Of a stretch of 64,000 nt of DNA, positions 18,119 through 61,578 are shown piece by piece; position 1 is the first letter of the stretch, and the number at the start of each line of letters is the position of its first letter. A model generated the notes under the pieces. The model was given only the letters and a program-made list of their open reading frames with translations, searched no databases and was not told the origin of the DNA. The position numbers were made by a program, and so were the translations under genes. The stretch comes from Bacteroidales bacterium (lineage in GTDB: Bacteria; Bacteroidota; Bacteroidia; Bacteroidales; Salinivirgaceae). Location: assembly GCA_012519055.1 (NCBI GenBank), contig JAAYQU010000001.1, positions 1 to 64,000 on the forward strand. Reading direction: 5' to 3'.

Positions 18119-20497
18119 ATGTATAAATTTCCACTTCTAGTAGCAATACTAAGCATATTAACATTTGGTACTGTTCTTAGTCAAAAGAATGACCCTTACG
18201 AACTTATACATAATCTGACCGAAATGGTAAATCCTGATAGTTTGGCAAGAACCATTCAGGACTTGGAGGCATTTGTAAGCAGATATTCTACAAAACCCAA
18301 CCGAATCCATATTGTATCGTATTTGAGGAACAGACTTGAATCATACGGCTGCGATATCGAAATTGATACATTCCCGTACATAAACAACGGTTTCAATTTT
18401 GAACAGTACAATGTTATTGGGAAAATATATGGCACAAACAATTCAGCACCGTTATTGATAGGAGCACACTATGACAGTTGTTGCAGGACAGATTCATCGC
18501 CAGGAGCAGACGACAACGCTTCAGGGATTGCAACTGTTATTGAGGCTGCCAGAATAATTTCACAGTCGGGATTTACGCCTCGTCGAACAATTTATTTTGG
18601 AGCTTGGGCGGCAGAAGAACAAGGACTGTTGGGCAGCAGAAATTATGCACGCAAACTCAGTCTATTAGGGGTTGAACTTGACTTGGCAATAAACTTAGAT
18701 ATGATTGCTACTAACAGATCAGAAAATTATAGGGCTTATGTTAAAACTTCTTCATCTGTCACTGAACATGCACTGTTTTTTGGTAATTTGAATGGGGGAT
18801 TATCCTTAATACAAGACGCTCCAACAAGCAATTCTGACCATGCATCATTTCGACAATACGGATATCCTATTCTATATTTTCATGAATACGATTTTAGTTC
18901 CTACTATCATACTTCCCGCGATTTGTTTATTCATTTGGATATGAACTATTGCGCAAGAGTAACACAGGCAGCATTGGCAAACCTATATGCTTTCTCACAA
19001 ATGATTGACAAGCCTGAATTAGTTTGCGTCGGCAATAATGGAACAGGCACGGGAATATACGCTCAATGGTTGCCGGTAAAAGATGCTGTTTCGTACAGAA
19101 TTAAACTACAAAGCAGCGGAGATATTTTACTCGACACATTAATAACAAGCTCTTTATCATTGAGTTACGAAGATTCCTCTTTTTCATCTCTTTCACTAGT
19201 TAATTTTTATATCTCAGCTGTTGACAGTTTGATGTTTGAAGGAGTGGCTGTAACTGAAAACATTAAACTGAGCGATAAACCATTAGCATTAAACGAAGTA
19301 AAAGCTTTTTCAGACCCTGATAAAATTACAATATCATGGAAAGCACCGAGTGAGCGCGACTTAAAAGAGGTAATTGTTTGGGTCCGTGAAGAAAATCAAG
19401 ATGTTTTTGTTGATTTTGGCCGCACAGATCCCTACTCAACAGAATACGACATTATTCCTGAAGATAGCCGTCATTTATATATAAAACTTCAATGTGTTGA
19501 TAGTGCGGGGAACAATGGTGCGGAATCTGCAATAACATCAGGAGCTTTAGCTAAGTTTGACAGAGGGTTACTTGTCATTAGTGATGTTAGTACGGCAAGT
19601 GGATTTTCTAACGACTCTGTAAGAGGTTATTTTAGAGCTCTTAACAAGGTAGTACCAACAACAGTCATAAGGTCGTCAGCAAAAATACCAAACATATACA
19701 AAGCCTACGAAATGGTGTTGTGGCACAGTACAAAAGCTATTTTATCGCAAAGAATAGTTACAAATCTCGACAATTTAATAGATTACGTAAACTCAGGAGG
19801 AGGGCTTATTGTTAGCACTGATTATCCACAAAAGATGTTCGTTATTAATGAACAATACTCACTTTCTGTACCAAATGAAAGTCCTGTTAATTCGTTCCTA
19901 CATATATCAAAAATTGAATTTGTCAACGGCAGTCGATTAGAGCAAGCCCGAAGCAACCTCGCACCAACTCTTAACGTTGATCCAGAACGAGTCCCAAGTC
20001 AATTTGATGGTAATCTTAAGGAGTTTTGTGCAATAACCCCTATTGCTCCGTTGGCGCCTATTTACACTGGATATACATCACTATCTGGTAATTTAATGAA
20101 TAACAAAACTATTGGTATTATATCTAATGAGAATCCAAAATTGTGTGTTTTAAGTTTCCCTATGTTTTATTTTAAACACAACGAAATCTGCGATTTTATT
20201 TCATTTCTGAGAAACGAATGGGGATATACATCAATACCTATTGTCAGTTCAAATAAGGGGACTTTTAATTTTTATCCTAATCCCGCTGGCAATGTAGTTA
20301 CTGTTACAGTTGAAGAGACAGGAAATGATATTAATATAGAAGTATTTGATTTACAAGGAACAAGAGTCCTTCAATTAAGTAAAAAATGGTATGAAATGTT
20401 GACAACTAAAGATATAATTGTCAATATTTCAAAACTCCAGCATAATGTTTATTTCATTAAAGTTAACAATGAAACTAAATTATTGCTAAAACGTTGA
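18119..20497 (+). CDS. Secreted M28 zinc aminopeptidase with type IX sorting domain
   Basis: This 792-residue protein has a signal peptide (residues about 1-22). The M28 catalytic domain covers about residues 25-300: IGAHYDSCC (His and Asp), GADDNASGIATV, AAEEQGLLGS (general base and metal Glu), LDMIATN and YHTSRD (last His). It is followed by fibronectin-like beta domains and a region of unknown fold. The C-terminal 75 residues (FNFYPNPAGNVVTV, EVFDLQGTRVL, NVYFIKV) are a type IX secretion sorting domain. It probably trims peptides at the cell surface. Confidence 0.9.
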   Translation: MYKFPLLVAILSILTFGTVLSQKNDPYELIHNLTEMVNPDSLARTIQDLEAFVSRYSTKPNRIHIVSYLRNRLESYGCDIEIDTFPYINNGFNFEQYNVIGKIYGTNNSAPLLIGAHYDSCCRTDSSPGADDNASGIATVIEAARIISQSGFTPRRTIYFGAWAAEEQGLLGSRNYARKLSLLGVELDLAINLDMIATNRSENYRAYVKTSSSVTEHALFFGNLNGGLSLIQDAPTSNSDHASFRQYGYPILYFHEYDFSSYYHTSRDLFIHLDMNYCARVTQAALANLYAFSQMIDKPELVCVGNNGTGTGIYAQWLPVKDAVSYRIKLQSSGDILLDTLITSSLSLSYEDSSFSSLSLVNFYISAVDSLMFEGVAVTENIKLSDKPLALNEVKAFSDPDKITISWKAPSERDLKEVIVWVREENQDVFVDFGRTDPYSTEYDIIPEDSRHLYIKLQCVDSAGNNGAESAITSGALAKFDRGLLVISDVSTASGFSNDSVRGYFRALNKVVPTTVIRSSAKIPNIYKAYEMVLWHSTKAILSQRIVTNLDNLIDYVNSGGGLIVSTDYPQKMFVINEQYSLSVPNESPVNSFLHISKIEFVNGSRLEQARSNLAPTLNVDPERVPSQFDGNLKEFCAITPIAPLAPIYTGYTSLSGNLMNNKTIGIISNENPKLCVLSFPMFYFKHNEICDFISFLRNEWGYTSIPIVSSNKGTFNFYPNPAGNVVTVTVEETGNDINIEVFDLQGTRVLQLSKKWYEMLTTKDIIVNISKLQHNVYFIKVNNETKLLLKR

Positions 20498-20654
20498 GTT
20501 ATATGCATTAACGACACAGTATATAAAATCTTTGACCCAAAAATTATTCTTCTGCACGGAGTTAATTATTTCAAGTAAGTCGGCTGGTTTCAGTTTCATT
20601 TGTTCATTCAACAGATACCTTATTTTGGTTTTTCTTGCATTTTTTACGTTTTAT

Positions 20655-20685
20655 TTTGGTTTTTAATAAAAATGTACTATCTTTG
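20655..20685 (+). promoter_or_regulatory. Canonical promoter with no protein gene downstream
   Basis: TTTG (20655-20658), 19 nt, then TATCTTTG (20678-20685) match the Bacteroidota consensus exactly. The next 110 bases hold no plausible ORF, and the next gene (cheB) runs in the opposite direction. Confidence 0.75.
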
Positions 20686-20689
20686 CTTT

Positions 20690-20802
20690 GATGACCATTC
20701 TCTTGTAACCGCGGTTTAACCAGTTGCCTGAGTTTGGTCATCTTTAGTATAGCATTGCTGTTTTTCTCAAGTTTTGAGAAAAACAAAAGCTATGATGTAC
20801 GG
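20690..20802 (+). ncRNA. Candidate structured small RNA
   Basis: Just after the promoter at 20655-20685, GATGACCA (20690-20697) pairs perfectly with TGGTCATC (20735-20742) around a 37-nt loop that holds AACCGCGGTT. Next comes a strong hairpin: GTTTTTCTCAA (20759-20769) and TTGAGAAAAAC (20773-20783) with a 3-nt loop, extended outwards by TAGC/GCTA pairing. I do not recognise it as 6S, SRP, RNase P or a known riboswitch. The exact 3' end is uncertain. Confidence 0.55.
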
Positions 20803-20804
20803 TT

Positions 20805-21992
20805 TTAGTGTTTGTGATTTATAACAAACTGAGCCATTTGGTTTAATGGTAGTACGTGTTGGGCGGCTCCTAGTTTAATAGCCTCCTTAGGCATTCCAAA
20901 TATTACGCTCGATTTTTCATCTTGGGCAATGGTTACAGCACCTCTTTCTTTTAGTTCCAATAGTCCCCTGGCACCATCGTCTCCCATTCCTGTCATAAGT
21001 ATTCCCAATGCGTTAGGACCTGCATATATTGCTGCACTTCTGAAAAGTATATCAACCGAAGGTCTGTGTCTGTTTACTAATGGACCATCGTTGATTTCAA
21101 CGTAATAACGCGCACCACTGCGTTTTAACAACGTATGGCGATTTCCTGGAGCAATCAAAGCCCTTCCTCTGATTATTGTGTCGTTATCTTCTGCCTCCTT
21201 TACTGAAATTTGGCATAACTCATTAAGCCTATCTGCAAACGAGCGGGTAAAGACCTCTGGCATATGTTGCACAATTACGATTCCTGGCGAGTCGGGAGGC
21301 AAAGCCGTAAGAAACTCACGCAAAGCTTCTGTTCCACCGGTAGATGCACCTACTACAACGACCATTTCAGTTGTTTTTATCATCGATTGCCCTTTTGTGA
21401 ATGGGAGTATTACGTCGGCGCTTAGCTTTGGCTGTACCTGTATTGGTTCGCTTATACGTGGTCTTTCTTTTTTCGGCAGTGTAGTTGTGGTTTGTTGCGA
21501 TGTTATTATCGGTGATTCCGTTTGTGGTACAGATGTTGGGGTTTTTGTCACAGGTTTAGTAGTAGCACTAGCATAACCACGACGTTTTGGTTTAACCTTA
21601 GACGCAGTTTTAACCGAATCTGTGATTCTAATGCGCGACTCTTCTATAAATTCTCTGGTACTCATGTTAGGCTTTGCAATGATGTCTACTGCACCAAGCT
21701 CAAGCGCGCGCACTGCAGTATCTGCTCCTTTTGTTGTAAGTGATGATATTATTACTACTGGAATAGGATGTTGGCTCATTATTTTTCTCAAAAAGGTGAG
21801 TCCATCCATTCTTGGCATTTCAATATCGAGAGTTATTACATCGGGAACCTCTTTACGAATCTTCTTTGCTGCAAAATAGGGATCTGCTGCGACGCCAATA
21901 ACCTCTAACTCGGGATCCATATTAAAGATAGCAGAAAGAGTTTGTCTCACAACTGCGGAGTCATCAACAATCAATACCTTAATCTTTTTCAT
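20805..21992 (-). CDS. cheB: Chemotaxis response regulator protein-glutamate methylesterase
   Basis: The 395-residue protein has an N-terminal receiver domain ([11 protein letters not shown], phospho-acceptor Asp56 in [11 protein letters not shown]). Its C-terminal methylesterase has the catalytic triad Ser217 (GASTGG), His243 (VQHMP) and Asp338 or Asp339 (GMGDDGARG). The linker (about residues 130-205) is long and rich in Thr, Pro and Lys. CheB removes methyl groups from chemoreceptors when phosphorylated by CheA. It is the last gene of the operon, 146 nt after cheD. No receptor gene is nearby. Confidence 0.95.
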
Positions 21993-33910: not shown

Positions 33911-33978
33911 AATATTTTTCAAAAAATTCGTGCACTTATGTTTAAACCTAAACCCAATTAGAAATCTGAAGTCGGAAA

Positions 33979-34161
33979 TGTCCGTAGGACAACATGTGAT
34001 TAACCGTAAGATTTATCTTACGGAAACGGCACCCCCTCGACTTTCGTCCGTAGGGCGACACTAATACATTAAAGCAATGTGCCACCCTACGGGTGGGATT
34101 GTGTGCTATTGCACACCCATAGGCTTACGCCTATGGTTAATCATATGTTGTCCTACGGACA
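33979..34161. repeat. Nested palindromic element (183 bp)
   Basis: A 27-base arm at 33979-34005 (starting TGTCCGTAGGACAACATG) is the inverse of 34135-34161 with a single G-T wobble. Between them lie four more hairpins: 34004-34023 (CCGTAAGAT/ATCTTACGG), 34048-34092 (CCGTAGGG/CCCTACGG core), 34101-34116 (GTGTGC/GCACAC) and 34117-34136 (CCATAGGC/GCCTATGG). There is no ORF. The shape suggests a small non-autonomous mobile element or a REPIN-like repeat. Confidence 0.8.
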
Positions 34162-34270
34162 AAAAACATGTACTAATCCAAAAATATGAATCTTCAAAAA
34201 TCAACCATATCATAAAGACGCAGTCTTTCCTAAATGTTCCTTAACTCCTTAATGGATATTTAGTTAATGT

Positions 34271-34334
34271 CCACCAACCACGCATCACGCAACCCACACC
34301 TAAAGATAACATACTTTTTCAGTGAACCCTAATT
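34271..34334. repeat. Interspersed repeat, family C, copy 1
   Basis: CCACCAACCACG at the start and ACTTTTTCAGTGAACCCTAATT at the end return in the same order and spacing at 46000-46058, with similar bases between. Confidence 0.6.
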
Positions 34335-35343: not shown

Positions 35344-35371
35344 GTAGAGACGGAGCATGCTCCGTCTCTAC
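35344..35371. repeat. 28-bp perfect palindrome, copy 1
   Basis: GTAGAGACGGAGCA and its exact inverse TGCTCCGTCTCTAC lie back to back. It starts 3 nt after the HD-protein stop. Identical copies are at 44491-44518 and 45813-45840, and a variant is at 38019-38046. Confidence 0.9.
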
Positions 35372-37969: not shown

Positions 37970-38018
37970 CATGAAAACAAGTTCATGGGTTTATTATTTC
38001 GGATATTTTTTGATGACA

Positions 38019-38046
38019 GTAGAGACGGTGCATGCACCGTCTCTAC
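38019..38046. repeat. 28-bp perfect palindrome, copy 2 (compensated variant)
   Basis: Same as the other three copies except that both arms differ: GACGGTGCATGCACCGTC replaces GACGGAGCATGCTCCGTC. Two changes at mirrored positions keep the palindrome perfect. Confidence 0.9.
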
Positions 38047-38068
38047 ATCCTGTTAATTGATAAAGCTA

Positions 38069-42157: not shown

Positions 42158-42216
42158 AAGGTATAAGGTAAAAGGAGCAAGTAGAAAGTGTTTTTAACTT
42201 TATAAACTTTCTCCTT
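42158..42216. repeat. Degenerate interspersed repeat (AAGGTATAAGG ... CTTTATAAACTTT), copy 2
   Basis: AAGGTATAAGGTAAAAGGAGCAAG-type sequence is followed by TTTAACTTTATAAACTTTCTCC, matching copies at 13321-13372 (inverse) and 43658-43722. Confidence 0.55.
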
Positions 42217-42219
42217 TTA

Positions 42220-42297
42220 ATACCGATTGGACAGCTACAATAGTCCAAACTTCGCTATCGCTCTTTTGGACTATGTATCTGTAACATCGGTATTTTC
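42220..42297. repeat. Interspersed structured repeat, family B, copy 2 (intact)
   Basis: Outer arms ATACCGAT (42220-42227) and ATCGGTAT (42286-42293) and inner arms ATAGTCCAAA (42240-42249) and TTTGGACTAT (42265-42274) are both perfect inverse pairs, so the element can fold as a double-stem hairpin. It aligns with 8649-8724. Confidence 0.75.
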
Positions 42298-42364
42298 CAT
42301 TGTAAAATTTTAAAAAAGATTGGACTATTTTAAAATTACAATTGGTATAACTTTTAACTGTGAA

Positions 42365-44490: not shown

Positions 44491-44518
44491 GTAGAGACGG
44501 AGCATGCTCCGTCTCTAC
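44491..44518. repeat. 28-bp perfect palindrome, copy 3
   Basis: Identical to the copy at 35344-35371. It lies 41 nt after purQ and is directly followed by CTTTATAAACTTTTAAC-type repeat sequence. Confidence 0.9.
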
Positions 44519-45812: not shown

Positions 45813-45840
45813 GTAGAGACGGAGCATGCTCCGTCTCTAC
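45813..45840. repeat. 28-bp perfect palindrome, copy 4
   Basis: Identical to the copy at 35344-35371. It lies 17 nt upstream of the thpR start. Confidence 0.9.
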
Positions 45841-61372: not shown

Positions 61373-61392
61373 CAATTACGAATTACGAATGG

Positions 61393-61461
61393 GACACAGA
61401 TAACACGGATTAAACTGATTTGCACGGATAAAAATCTGTGTGAATATGTTACATCTGTGTC
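61393..61461. repeat. Interspersed repeat with double hairpin
   Basis: GACACAGAT (61393-61401) and ATCTGTGTC (61453-61461) pair outside, CACGGAT and ATCTGTG pair inside. The wording (ACACGGATTAAAC, CACGGATAAAAATCTGTG, CATCTGCGTTC) is a common interspersed repeat of Bacteroidota. ACTTTATAAACTTTTAAC repeats follow to 61510. Confidence 0.65.
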
Positions 61462-61578
61462 ATCTGCGTTCTACTAACTTTTAACTTTACTAACTTTATA
61501 AACTTTTAACTATATTTACTATTTTTGGGTTTTATAAGACTAAAGCACCAAAATATAATGTTATATAATAATCGCTAT

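Follow-up and report, generated by a model that had tools for sequence, protein, structure and literature searches.

Why should a probable promoter stand at the meeting point of two convergent genes, neither of which it could serve? This question is raised by the intergenic gap at positions 20498-20804 of the 64,000-nucleotide stretch of DNA analysed here (the window), which separates a gene encoding an M28 peptidase with a type IX secretion tail (18119-20497, + strand) from the convergent cheB, encoding a receiver and a methylesterase (20805-21992, - strand). An earlier note had interpreted the gap as the site of a small RNA (sRNA), and the analysis partly supports this interpretation: on balance, we favour a free-standing sRNA gene that is intergenic, encoded on the + strand and specific to the lineage.

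A probable promoter in the convergent gap

The candidate promoter is composed of the -33 element TTTG (20655-20658, + strand), which opens the 18-mer TTTGGTTTTTAATAAAAA, a 19-nt spacer and the -7 element TATCTTTG (20678-20685, + strand). From the promoter spacing, transcription is predicted to start at about 20690 on the + strand. Both sequence and coordinates confirm the previous assertion of a Bacteroidota promoter in a convergent gap without a protein gene to serve, and no protein-coding frame served by the promoter was found on the + strand of the gap. Such a promoter of its own, with no protein gene to use it, is a mark of an sRNA gene, seen here at the level of sequence only. The same gap also contains a 54-codon open frame on the minus strand (20489-20650), the start of which is unclear (..MKLKPADLLEIINSVQKNNFWVKDF..). 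This frame was rejected as a gene relic, for Pfam and the relatives gave chance-level matches only.

Taken bare, the promoter pattern is weak. Searches for TTTG-N17-21-TANNTTTG yielded 263 matches in the 2.7-Mb genome, compared to 228 for the reversed control, and within the window the pattern is rarer than predicted by shuffling. Nevertheless, this promoter type appears to be in use in this genome, as suggested by the tandem copies at rRNA and the -7 part at tmRNA. Two tandem promoter copies are located before the 16S rRNA on contig C7, and the second of them has the octamer TATCTTTG as its -7 element, exactly as in the candidate; a matching pair is found on contig C18. The 16S rRNA was identified by visual inspection of its 5' sequence. 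Moreover, TAACTTTG, corresponding to the -7 part, precedes the tmRNA in the genome. Within the window, the -7 motif TANNTTTG in gaps between codirectional genes is oriented with these genes in nine of 11 cases and against them in two (one-sided p 0.03), the two wrong-way motifs being spread over roughly 4.1 kb of such gaps. From this wrong-way rate and the added demand for TTTG, we roughly estimate that about 0.01 false full promoters would occur in a gap as long as this one, even before +1 is required to fall on the opening base of a strong hairpin. The promoter is credible because of its position, its likeness to the rRNA promoters and the hairpin beginning at the expected +1, and we consider the promoter at 20655-20685 to be probably genuine, though not proven.

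Two hairpins and the end of the putative RNA

Hairpin 1 (20690-20742, + strand) consists of 8 bp, a 2x2 loop, 3 bp, another 2x2 loop, 5 bp and a small apical helix. Its stem, formed by GATGACCA (20690-20697) and TGGTCATC (20735-20742), encloses a 37-nt loop that pairs internally via CTC/GAG, GUAAC/GUUGC and GGU/ACC. Hairpin 2 (20747-20800, + strand) has the pairings GUAUA/UGUAC, CAU/AUG and GCU/AGC in addition to an 11-bp GUUUUUCUCAA/UUGAGAAAAAC helix and a triloop, its core being GTTTTTCTCAA (20760-20770) paired with TTGAGAAAAAC (20774-20784) across a 3-nt loop. The two stems described previously, one closing a 37-nt loop and the other an 11-bp stem nested in more pairing, are thus correct in coordinates and pairing. 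The internal loops of both hairpins are small and mostly symmetric, and the bases predicted to be unpaired are limited to 1- to 3-base loops, the UUUA linker and the tail.

The region 20687-20830 has a minimum free energy of -49.9 kcal/mol, compared to -26.1 +/- 3.5 kcal/mol in dinucleotide shuffles (z -6.8), a stable secondary structure of the kind sought in an sRNA gene. None of the 200 shuffles folds as well, and in a sliding-window survey (2244 windows, each of 114 nt, covering both strands of the 64 kb), the fold is among the top handful. The opposite strand likewise folds strongly (z -6.3), and palindromes in general fold strongly on the reverse strand too. Compared strand by strand, hairpin 1 has a stability of -23.5 kcal/mol as + RNA versus -19.0 kcal/mol as - RNA, and hairpin 2 of -18.5 versus -17.4 kcal/mol; the + strand is more stable because G-U pairs turn into C-A on the other strand. 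This bias of folding favours a + strand transcript.

We propose that the housekeeping-sigma RNA polymerase would initiate at about 20690 from TTTG-N19-TATCTTTG, giving an RNA of about 110-120 nt that would extend to about 20800-20806 and fold into two successive hairpins, each paired almost throughout. An intrinsic terminator with a U-tract, a further mark of an sRNA gene, was found at the candidate on neither strand. Terminator-like sites are about as many as in shuffles across three 20-kb stretches of the window, and since they do not clearly exceed the shuffle expectation, the missing terminator is weak negative evidence. In sRNA calling, an intrinsic terminator is a supportive and not a hard criterion (PMC7366714).

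The cheB stop codon is at 20805-20807 and the predicted hairpin 2 stops at 20800, so that an RNA ending with this hairpin would be antisense only to any 3' untranslated tail of cheB. The antisense overlap with the cheB transcript that the earlier note envisaged is therefore conditional, requiring one of the two transcripts to run on.

Copy number and distribution

BLAST at E<=0.001 revealed no second genomic copy of the element apart from its own palindrome, in contrast to the several copies that define a MITE or palindromic repeat. The Rfam covariance models, including Bacteroidales-1 (6S), gave no match at the gathering threshold, and relaxing the search to E 10 added eukaryotic chance matches only, which upholds the claim that the element fits no known RNA family. 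BLAST searches of 41 and of 198 genomes recovered only the element itself, and so did a single-sequence covariance model run on 41 and on 393 genomes of the order; since such a model with strict filters misses distant relatives, these searches indicate that the element is restricted at ordinary sensitivity but do not prove it completely absent elsewhere. Collections of plasmids, phages and viruses gave no match. BLAST matches to the A/T-rich hairpin arm in G062, G107, G161, G191 and G119 were rejected, as they lack the promoter-hairpin unit and mostly lie in apparent coding sequence.

Both same-genus genomes carry cheB (76-78% identity) and the M28 gene (44-45%), yet not side by side, indicating that the gap is a lineage-specific junction. 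The promoter-hairpin unit is absent behind cheB and behind the M28 gene in both. One of these genomes retains the tmRNA-M28 neighbourhood, its tmRNA being presumed by visual inspection. Among the named genomes, no cheB locus exceeds 68% identity, hence there is no sibling gap to align. The earlier note had suggested looking for conservation in close relatives, and for compensating changes by a covariance-model search and in the cheB-downstream region. Neither the gap nor a homologue was found in the same-genus genomes. As cheB and the M28 gene are not adjacent in those genomes, the result argues for lineage restriction and does not disprove the RNA; for want of a homologue to align, the stems gain no support from covariation.

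The 18-mer TTTGGTTTTTAATAAAAA has exactly two occurrences in the genome. The second belongs to another orphan promoter (L176; G000 C16:16737-16768, minus strand), behind which lie a 9-bp hairpin and then a U6 tract; its flanking genes appear by eye to be uvrB and GNAT. This unit behind uvrB possibly encodes an RNA of about 45-50 nt. It is conceivable, though improbable, that the candidate is a young, constitutive, almost fully double-helical sRNA, born at a rearrangement junction and sharing the TTTGGTTTTTAATAAAAA promoter block with the uvrB-side unit, the two belonging to a small group of orphan RNAs controlled by one shared upstream signal.

Very stable hairpins are also present in the two remaining convergent gaps of more than 200 nt. 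The hairpin at 42181, in one of them, is a repeat matched 41 times in this genome but not at all in the six relatives searched, two of which are of the same genus; it lies in a MITE-like palindrome of about 112 nt (42160-42330, core about 42218-42330). The hairpin at 61390 belongs to a palindromic repeat of about 80-95 nt (61380-61475) with 29 genome matches, located in a gap between codirectional genes. A REP-like perfect palindrome, GTAGAGACGGAGCATGCTCCGTCTCTAC, occurs four times in the window (35344-35371, 38018-38047, 44491-44518 and 45813-45840), always in gaps and once with a GTGCATGCAC centre, and has more copies in L163. The gap 33970-34165 contains several nested hairpins made from related arms (CCGTAGG..., CCATAGG...), and part of its 34030 structure has a 91% identical copy in L195. 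Weaker gap hairpins at 34315 and 9520 were compared with a limited DNA set only. The notion that every strong gap hairpin is a repeat, true for 42181 and 61390, is false for the single-copy candidate.

Competing explanations and known systems

The hairpins could alternatively be a transcription-end structure that blocks or stabilises the 3' ends of the M28 and/or cheB mRNAs, the promoter-like site being coincidental or producing no more than a short antisense blocker. The strong folding of both strands, the location exactly between two gene ends and the very stable hairpins in the other two large convergent gaps are in agreement with such a role, as is the scarcity of canonical terminators in the three 20-kb stretches scanned. 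However, a U-tract is found on neither strand, the 42181 hairpin tested from another convergent gap proved to be a repeated element and not a gene-specific terminator, and the promoter just before the first base of the hairpin, together with the + strand folding bias, is left unexplained. We regard this explanation as rather unlikely. Still less probable is that a palindromic, MITE-like mobile element inserted in the gap left a lone copy, surviving or decayed, with a chance promoter. The many palindromic elements in the gaps of this genome and the lineage-specific synteny junction speak for it, and the MITE- and REP-like palindromes (42181, 61390, GTAGAGACGG...CCGTCTCTAC) resemble the candidate in being very stable gap hairpins. 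They are repeated, whereas the candidate is single-copy and immediately preceded by a promoter; moreover, it is made up of two unlike hairpins and not of a single terminal palindrome. No target-site duplication surrounds the hairpins: a 14-nt direct repeat, the only one found, lies upstream of both, at 20620 and 20651.

A divergent housekeeping RNA (6S or SRP RNA) overlooked by Rfam would fit the lack of any match to RF01693, the Bacteroidales 6S-type family, in this genome and its five nearest relatives (G000-G005), all of this family of the order, that RNA family being present in G007, a genome of another family. Nevertheless, this identity is highly improbable: the relaxed Rfam search brought up eukaryotic chance matches only, the candidate forms two separate hairpins, in contrast to 6S RNA, which is a single long rod with a bubble, and it is missing from the same-genus genomes, unlike a housekeeping RNA.

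Returning to the favoured sRNA gene, its product would have almost no unpaired run, which makes binding of a protein or RNase, or action in cis on the cheB mRNA at its 3' end, likelier than seed pairing in trans. Such cis action would depend on the facing cheB end entering the gap, and both modes are our guess. If expressed, the RNA would join, as a lineage-specific sRNA beside a chemotaxis cluster, the few characterised so far in the phylum and provide an example of an sRNA born at a synteny breakpoint, leaving the general picture unchanged.

Compared to GibS of B. thetaiotaomicron, which has a long unpaired 5' end bearing the seed and a Rho-independent terminator (PMC7366714), the candidate is helical from its first base and lacks a recognised terminator; it also leaves hardly any stretch unpaired, so that regulation through a seed, as in GibS, is unlikely. 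It resembles cis-antisense and convergent 3'-end RNAs in facing the 3' end of cheB, and extensive folding has been predicted for selected cis-antisense RNAs of B. thetaiotaomicron (PMC7366714), but its hairpins stop before the cheB stop codon and any overlap is hypothetical. The intergenic sRNAs of B. thetaiotaomicron, comprising GibS and the ANNOgesic set, share with it the intergenic location, the canonical promoter of the phylum, the short length and often the restriction to a strain (PMC7366714). A canonical promoter is found in 76% of the intergenic candidates of that species, and 27 of its 49 high-confidence intergenic sRNAs are strain-specific (PMC7366714), so that strain specificity is not unusual. 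Altogether, the gap probably contains an sRNA gene confined to this species, and genes of this kind are common.
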